A model generated the notes under the pieces. It did not search any database. It saw only the letters and a program-made list of their open reading frames with translations, and was not told where the DNA came from. The position numbers and the translations under genes were made by a program. This document shows, piece by piece, positions 3,557 to 41,088 of a DNA stretch of 41,088 nucleotides (positions are counted from its first letter, which is position 1; each line of letters opens with the position of its first letter). The stretch is taken from contig JAFVEP010000070.1 in the NCBI GenBank assembly GCA_017475935.1, positions 1 through 41,088 of the forward strand. The letters are read 5' to 3'. Origin of the DNA: Alphaproteobacteria bacterium. GTDB taxonomy: Bacteria > Pseudomonadota > Alphaproteobacteria > RF32 > CAG-239.

Positions 3557-3802
3557 ATGAAAATACAAGCTGTAAAATTCAGAAAAGACGGTTTTATGAA
3601 TCAATCATTCGCCTTTGGCGGAGAAGAAGGTGCTGAAAAATTTGATCCGTCAGTTAAATATCGTTCTGGTTTGCAAAATTATGTGATTGATACCGGCGAT
3701 GAGGCTCACGGAATTAAGGTCGGCACAGCGTTTGAGGACTTGCCGATAGATTGGCGCTGTCCACGTTGCAAACAAACAAAAGAAAAATTCAATGCCGCCT
3801 AA
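3557..3802 (+). CDS. Rubredoxin-like protein lacking the first CxxC knuckle
   Basis: An 81-residue protein whose second half reads HGIKVGTAFEDLPIDWRCPR followed by CKQTKEKF, matching the C-terminal half of rubredoxin (GTxFEDLPDDWxCPxCGxxKxxF). Cys68 and Cys71 form the second metal knuckle. The first knuckle (YxCxxCGYIYD in rubredoxins) is absent: the sequence goes from NYVIDTGDEA directly into the conserved part, and there are no other cysteines. A normal rubredoxin FeS4 site therefore cannot form within one chain; a dimer-shared site, another metal or loss of metal are possible. AAGGA stands before the ATG. It lies 19 nt behind the flavoprotein gene and is probably co-transcribed. Confidence 0.75.
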   Translation: MKIQAVKFRKDGFMNQSFAFGGEEGAEKFDPSVKYRSGLQNYVIDTGDEAHGIKVGTAFEDLPIDWRCPRCKQTKEKFNAA

Positions 3803-3951: not shown

Positions 3952-4188
3952 TTATTTTTTCTTGGCAGCAACTTTTTTTGCAGTACTTGTGGCGCTGGCT
4001 TTAGTGCTTGATTTCGACGTAGTCTTGGTTGTTTTTGTTTTAGAACATTTGCAAGAGCAATTCTGCGAACCATACAGCTGATTGATTGCCATATTCCAGA
4101 AATATTCATCCTGACCGCTCGGACAACCGGCATTCTGCCAATTATAGTAAGCGGCTAAACGGATGTTATTTTCGTTGTATTTAGTCAT
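3952..4188 (-). CDS. Small DUF2934-like protein with a Lys/Ser/Thr/Ala-rich tail
   Basis: A 78-residue protein in two parts. Residues 8-40 (IRLAAYYNWQNAGCPSGQDE, then YFWNMAINQL) resemble the DUF2934 helix pair, an IRxxAYxxWxxxGxPxGxxxxxW pattern of unknown function. Residues 42-50 carry a CSCKC cluster, and the last 28 residues are almost only K, T, S and A, ending AAKKK, like a histone-H1 or AlgP-type tail. This suggests nucleic-acid or nucleoid association, which is an inference from composition. A GGAG ribosome site lies 8 nt before the ATG and a strong terminator follows, so the gene is likely real and monocistronic. Confidence 0.7.
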   Translation of the reverse strand: MTKYNENNIRLAAYYNWQNAGCPSGQDEYFWNMAINQLYGSQNCSCKCSKTKTTKTTSKSSTKASATSTAKKVAAKKK

Positions 4189-24354: not shown

Positions 24355-24485
24355 TTCAGATCCTTCATTTGTTAATCGTCAGTATTTTAGTATGAAATAA
24401 TTACTCTTTCAAGGTAAAAAAATAATTTCTTGTAATAATTTATTTTTTGTACTACAAAGTCTGTGTTTGTTTTTAAGAGGAAAAA

Positions 24486-40851: not shown

Positions 40852-40880
40852 TTGACAAGAGGACAAGCTTAGTATATAAG
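40852..40880 (+). promoter_or_regulatory. Promoter of the tRNA-Thr fragment
   Basis: A perfect TTGACA (40852-40857) is 17 bp from TATAAG (40875-40880), 15 nt before the first tRNA base; it looks intact. Confidence 0.7.
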
Positions 40881-40894
40881 CATCTCGAGTGTAA

Positions 40895-40938
40895 GCCAAC
40901 ATAGCTCAGTTGGTAGAGCTACTGATTTGTAATCAGCG
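40895..40938 (+). pseudogene. Interrupted tRNA-Thr (TGT), 5' part only
   Basis: The sequence follows a normal tRNA-Thr from the acceptor GCCAACA, through the D arm (GCTCAGTTGGTAGAGC) to the anticodon arm CTGA-TTTGTAA-TCAG with anticodon TGT. After 40937 the match ends: no variable loop, T arm or acceptor 3' strand is found in the remaining 150 bases, which are AT-rich. The promoter is intact. It may be a pseudogene, an integration junction, a split by an intron or other insertion whose far side lies outside the window, or an assembly error. Confidence 0.75.
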
Positions 40939-41088
40939 AACAATTTTCCAAACAATCAAAAAATATTTAATAAAATCAATATGTTATGCAATTTATTTTT
41001 TGCATAAACCACCGCTTTTTTGCCCGAGTGAGCGCCGAGTGAGTGAATTTAATACTGTTGCCTACAATTCTATTCATTTTAATACATA

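Follow-up and report, generated by a model that had tools for sequence, protein, structure and literature searches.

tRNA-dependent lysogeny was named in actinobacteriophages and was shown there by phage genetics (PMC10865867). Table 2 of that report gives, for the cases without reconstruction of the tRNA gene, cores of 8-17 base pairs (bp) at Lys-TTT, Ile2-CAT, and Leu-CAA, and the available text has its discoverers asking how common the strategy is elsewhere; the same source says of prophage Lj965 of Lactobacillus johnsonii that it does not rebuild the tRNA and encodes a cognate one (via PMC10865867). As far as the available text of PMC11476347 goes, a prophage in two Sinorhizobium meliloti strains inactivates tRNA-Leu(UAG) and brings a substitute, which gives the class Alphaproteobacteria a precedent. 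The accessible portion of PMC12429752 states that phiLM21-like prophages of S. meliloti do not behave in this way, and in that of PMC13015707 the concept is restated only. Here, we describe a cut tRNA-Thr(TGT) gene at the end of a 41,088-base stretch from an uncultured alphaproteobacterium (the whole of contig G000:C20, hereafter the window). This end is very probably the left attachment junction (attL) of a temperate phage-like element that splits the host gene and brings a replacement for it.

The match between the window and intact tRNA-Thr(TGT) genes of the genus stops at position 40936, where TAATCAG is followed by CGAACA versus TGGGTC in the intact copies. This comparison bears out the first-pass annotation of this DNA, which had recognized a cut at the 3' strand of the anticodon stem and had placed the start of the gene, its promoter-like motifs, and a doubled repeat in the tail where we also find them (Table 1); the break that it set at 40938 is real, although the identity ends one or two bases to the left of that position. 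ARAGORN and Rfam (gathering score) called no tRNA at the window end, and a tRNA search of the own genome gave a below-cut-off match at 40904-40937 (20.2 bits, model positions 10-42). When both strands of the 41,088 bases were scanned, the repeat CGAGTGAG was confined to its two tail positions. The sequence ends 152 bases past the cut, and since the window is a complete contig, the assembly offers no rightward extension. The genome bin to which it belongs, G000, comprises 80 contigs and 1,368,530 bases (95.77% complete, 4.01% contamination).

In a search of 38 genomes that included the window's own, G012, G019, and G005 were found to share its junction and tail; within the genus, the junction and arm occurred in 5 of 26 genomes (own included), the genus search adding G038. 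A pattern scan of named genomes returned seven stretches in four isolates, namely RGIG4793 (roe deer reticulum), RGIG4925 (roe deer rumen), RGIG6619 (sheep rumen), and RUG772 ("uncultured Rhodospirillaceae"). The last three were taken as G012, G038, and G019, respectively, and the junction set consists of six genomes (G000, G005, G012, G019, G038, and RGIG4793). When 96 bases each way were compared in all 15 pairs of these genomes, the element side was 96-100% identical and the host side 49-74%. Over approximately 1.9 kilobases (kb) of a 2.95-kb host stretch of the window, the identity to G012 and to G019 was 74%. Since the arm is nearly identical while the hosts are approximately 74% identical, these values indicate that the element moved between species recently. 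The neighbouring host gene had a match in 25 of the 26 genus genomes (71-77% outside G000); tracing it across these genomes revealed no empty site in the window's own species, and in G012, G019, G005, and G038 it lies on a contig other than that carrying attL.

Three genomes yielded the right end of the element (G012:C2, G038:C5, and RGIG4793, locus L178). In each of them, the right attachment junction (attR) contains the host 3' half only, starting at the core GATTTGTAATCAGTGGGTC, and the two host halves, when joined, form a normal tRNA-Thr(TGT). The core common to attL and attR (GATTTGTAATCA / TGATTTGTAATCA) measures 12 bp in G038 and RGIG4793 and 13 bp in G012. The CGAGTGAG block stands on the element side of attR as it does at attL in all three genomes; the 23-base block around the repeat recurs at the attR end of G012 and can also be recognized in G038 and RGIG4793. 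The doubled repeat that had been noticed in the tail thus belongs to the same element and is found again at its other end. Inside attR, on the opposite strand and with promoter-like motifs of its own, a complete tRNA-Thr(TGT) was present in all three genomes, at 295 bp from the core in G012 and 297 bp in RGIG4793; in G038 it is located on contig C39, the end of which shares an exact 141-base overlap with the attR contig. The host and carried tRNAs of G012 and G038 are different genes, because their acceptor stems differ (GCCGACA/TGTCGGC in the host halves versus GCCAACA/TGTTGGC in the carried gene).

At the left end, the 3' half was missing from attL in all six genomes, and ARAGORN called no tRNA at the attL of RGIG4793. 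In G019 and RGIG4793, the tail continues into a gene for a tyrosine integrase, which is encoded on the opposite strand and has its 3' end towards the tRNA; the window's contig stops before this point. The G019 gene is an open frame of 388 amino acids (aa) with Phage_integrase and arm-DNA-binding domains; the stretch read in RGIG4793 ends within the gene. Among 38 genomes, a set without G038 and RGIG4793, the integrase gene itself occurred only in G019, with the next best match (39% identical) in G024, and its 321 matches in phage records each had an identity below 60%. In relatives with the same attL as the window, the split, both junctions, the carried tRNA, and the integrase gene are therefore seen directly. 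For the window's own genome, which shows attL alone, we infer from these relatives an element with an integrase, a right end, and a spare tRNA. The first-pass annotation had held that, if this were the only tRNA-Thr(UGU), the rest of the gene must be supplied nearby; instead, in the relatives with both ends assembled, the host 3' half is left at the opposite end of the element, which supplies a complete second tRNA-Thr(TGT) of its own.

Table 1. Positions of the cut gene, the element arm, and comparable loci in other genomes of the class
Feature	Position	Strand	Remarks
Promoter-like motifs of the host tRNA gene (putative)	40852..40880	+	TTGACA at 40852, TATATAAG at 40873 (motif positions)
Host tRNA-Thr(TGT) 5' half, host side of attL	40895..40936	+	Identical to intact genus copies up to the anticodon stem
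Core TGATTTGTAATCA in the tRNA anticodon arm	40923..40935	+	attL and attR compared; 12-13 bp common
Left arm of the element, to the contig end	40937..41088	+	150/150 vs G019 from 40939, 149/150 vs G012
Doubled CGAGTGAG (41025 and 41036), probable integrase arm-type sites	41025..41043	+	23-base block recurs at the attR end; binding presumed
Split tRNA-Thr(TGT) of G198 (L248, L253)	G198:C19:17-68 and G198:C5:1363-1391		Pattern search
Island of G032, another family of the class (L156, L157)	G032:C21:3763-24437		20,674 bp on one contig, between tRNA-Thr(TGT) halves
Complete tRNA-Thr(TGT) and displaced 3' half of G294 (L271, L272)	G294:C2:38304-47951		Bounding 9.6 kb

We propose that the element-encoded tyrosine integrase recombines a 12-13-bp core of the element's attachment site (attP) with the identical bases that the single host tRNA-Thr(TGT) gene has in its anticodon arm, strand exchange presumably falling within that core. 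As a core of this length cannot restore the 3' half, the host gene would be split, with its 5' half at attL and its 3' half at attR. The CGAGTGAG repeats may be bound by the integrase as arm-type sites, and the element's own complete tRNA-Thr(TGT), approximately 300 bp inside attR, would compensate for the loss, probably by being expressed and thereby keeping the lysogen alive. Such an element would make its host dependent on it, since the host gene could be regained only by exact excision.

Judged by its layout, the architecture is that of tRNA-dependent lysogeny, here at tRNA-Thr(UGU) in an uncultured genus. It resembles the actinobacteriophage cases in that putative arm sites flank the core, and it differs from those set out in the available text in the tRNA (Thr-TGT), the host class (Alphaproteobacteria), the core length (12-13 bp), and in being known here from sequence alone (PMC10865867). 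As in the Lo5R7ANS-like prophages at tRNA-Leu(UAG) of S. meliloti, the host belongs to the same bacterial class, the tRNA gene is cut centrally, and a substitute is carried; the tRNA and the host are different ones (PMC11476347, available portion), and the integrase shares 26.9% identity over 60% of its length with that of Mesorhizobium phage Lo5R7ANS. The host of Lj965 belongs to another phylum. Islander-type islands likewise use a tyrosine integrase and a tRNA gene target, but those in the accessible text of PMC4383910 restore the disrupted gene at the junction, whereas the element described here does not. A literature search, with most subscription papers outside it, revealed no such case at tRNA-Thr(UGU) or in rumen Alphaproteobacteria. 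The present locus contributes sequence-level evidence from an alphaproteobacterial genus, and another tRNA, to the question of how common tRNA-dependent lysogeny is beyond actinobacteriophages. It also carries a caution for annotation, since an incomplete tRNA gene at the end of a contig can represent an attL, and a bin may lack a tRNA because the gene resides on a prophage left out of the bin.

The exact 5' pattern of tRNA-Thr(TGT) was present in 22 of the 26 genus genomes; 20 of them have it once, whereas G012 and G038 have it twice, the second copy being the carried gene. Setting the carried gene aside, tRNA-Thr(TGT) is single-copy in all 22; the gene is cut in five (G000, G005, G012, G019, and G038) and aligns full-length to the carried copy in 16. 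ACA is the commonest threonine codon in the 26 open reading frames (ORFs) of the window (159 of 489), and its decoding needs an anticodon beginning with U; tRNA-Thr(UGU) should therefore be needed. In G003, an otherwise normal tRNA-Thr(TGT) is split between two contig ends (G003:C4:8847 and G003:C19:19090; L154, L155) that overlap at the core, possibly because only some members of the population have the element. A TerB-like ORF near this contig-end tRNA resembles, by eye, an ORF beside the attR of G012.

Misjoins are common near contig ends, and the cut lies 152 bases from one, which would favour a chimeric assembly join near 40936. The first-pass annotation had named a join of this kind, at approximately 40938, as one of the findings that would overturn it. 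The same junction is found in five other genomes, in separate assemblies and with different host flanks, and because six genomes share it the chimera is barely credible. An intron, or a split tRNA the halves of which are joined after transcription, would explain why both halves survive and form a perfect cloverleaf when joined. Yet Rfam at its gathering score, with 152 bases available past the cut, gave only two tRNAs in the window, and the cut falls after the 3' strand of the stem, versus the anticodon-loop insertion of group I introns. Moreover, the sequence in G019 leads into an integrase, the host halves are on different contigs and separated by the element, and there is a complete copy, so that this explanation is next to impossible. 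The annotation had already judged that neither a known anticodon-loop intron nor an ordinary island that rebuilds the 3' half would fit, and this holds: there is no rebuilt tRNA at attL and no Rfam intron match.

An ordinary tRNA-targeting island would leave a complete, rebuilt tRNA at one junction and a displaced fragment at the other. The tyrosine integrase, the tRNA target, and the crossover in the anticodon arm are all ordinary, and G294, a relative at the family level, has a complete tRNA and a displaced 3' half of just such an appearance. Against this stand the missing 3' half at all six attL junctions, the three attR junctions with the 3' half only, and the location of the complete gene some 300 bp inside on the other strand, which make an ordinary island highly improbable. 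We also consider it very unlikely that the window ends in a dead remnant, that is, a split gene with no spare tRNA in a strain that does without tRNA-Thr(UGU) or has it elsewhere. No carried part was found in the own bin and the bins of four relatives are also without tRNA-Thr(TGT), as a remnant would have it; however, the arm matches that of G019 without a difference in 150 bases, the G019 integrase frame is open, the commonest threonine codon calls for this tRNA, and the bins are fragmented.

Several results weigh against a temperate phage-like element that replaces the tRNA it splits. In the own bin, the search with the 3' half pattern gave no match, and the tRNA and 5' pattern searches found no complete tRNA-Thr(TGT). 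The count that the annotation had proposed thus leaves the cut gene without an intact copy among 36 tRNA genes over the cut-off, which include Thr(CGT) and Thr(GGT); this absence is weak evidence, because Phe and Ile tRNAs are likewise missing from the list. Pattern searches of the G005 and G019 bins did not find the carried copy, and, apart from weak ones, the G000, G005, G012, and G003-G006 bins yielded no integrase relative. In RGIG4793, the host and carried genes both have the stem GCCAACA/TGTTGGC. The 5' and 3' patterns found no tRNA-Thr(TGT) in the genus bins G007, G008, G013, and G014, three of which are rated 95-100% complete; with four genus genomes showing none, one cannot expect every bin to contain this gene. 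Genes for capsid, terminase, or tail proteins were not seen in the short element contigs, and the label "phage" therefore rests on the integrase, helicase-loader, and weak excisionase matches. Searches of viral contigs with the integrase, the arm repeat, the left-arm pattern, and a 227-aa protein that adjoins the carried tRNA gave no match.

This 227-aa protein is 81% identical between G012 and G038. Beyond it, contig C39 of G038 encodes a weakly matching excisionase-like helix-turn-helix protein, a DnaD-like helicase loader, and a DUF6362 protein. The helicase-loader query found 16 relatives in viral contigs (36-58% identical). When the left region was compared with phage records, only tRNA-Thr-like stretches matched, covering 12-16% of the query.

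A class-wide pattern search covered 385 genomes and gave a match in 201; the last letter of the pattern misses some cut genes, including that of G032. Among the matches listed, one further clear cut gene was found, in G198, which belongs to the same family and another genus (Table 1). Its 3' half lies on a separate contig, where an Abi_2 gene adjoins it and the arm-like repeats are different ones. No complete tRNA-Thr(TGT) copy was found in the G198 bin with the patterns used; G198 therefore supports the split and not the replacement. In G294, the 3' half has an element-side flank in common with G198, and no integrase was recognized by eye among the listed ORFs.

The island of G032 carries an integrase, type I restriction genes, and luxI/luxR-like genes. 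The same 12-bp core, GATTTGTAATCA, occurs in the 5' half at 3763, in a complete tRNA at 3953 (190 bp inside), and in the 3' half at 24437; pairs of TGGGTAAC, unlike the CGAGTGAG repeats, are located near both ends, with a single copy at 4134. This arrangement is perhaps a tRNA replacement by a non-phage island. Since the gene sequence itself does not differ between the host and carried halves, an ordinary island with a leftover 5' fragment stays a candidate for G032. We suggest tentatively, and with slightly more doubt than belief, that splitting of tRNA-Thr(UGU) at its anticodon arm together with whole replacement may be a broader strategy in the class, reached by unrelated elements including non-phage defence islands. 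If so, such elements would make the host depend on them and would offer later arrivals a fresh bacterial attachment site (attB), because the carried tRNA itself contains the core.

Some minor observations concern candidates that were set aside or loci beside the genes discussed above. Tail-like matches in G001:C41, G002:C70, G002:C8, G007:C12, G007:C19, and G011:C45 were AT-rich resemblances of 28-62 bases and were taken as unrelated or due to chance; ARAGORN called one tRNA in these six stretches, a tRNA-Asp in L087. Two further tail-like matches lay in G016:C29 and G021:C90. A 16.9-bit tRNA match in the own bin (G000:C66:475-542) had, by eye, no likeness to a tRNA. A sequence at G370:C208:16942-16993 (L249) that resembles the 5' part of tRNA-Thr(TGT) and has an odd T arm is possibly another disrupted gene. 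Named relatives of the genus come mostly from the rumen or reticulum. At several of the intact tRNA-Thr loci (L055-L065), a recurring GC-rich block (CGACCCACTTGGGTCGGGCCGGAGG ... ACGACGGGC) follows the terminator.
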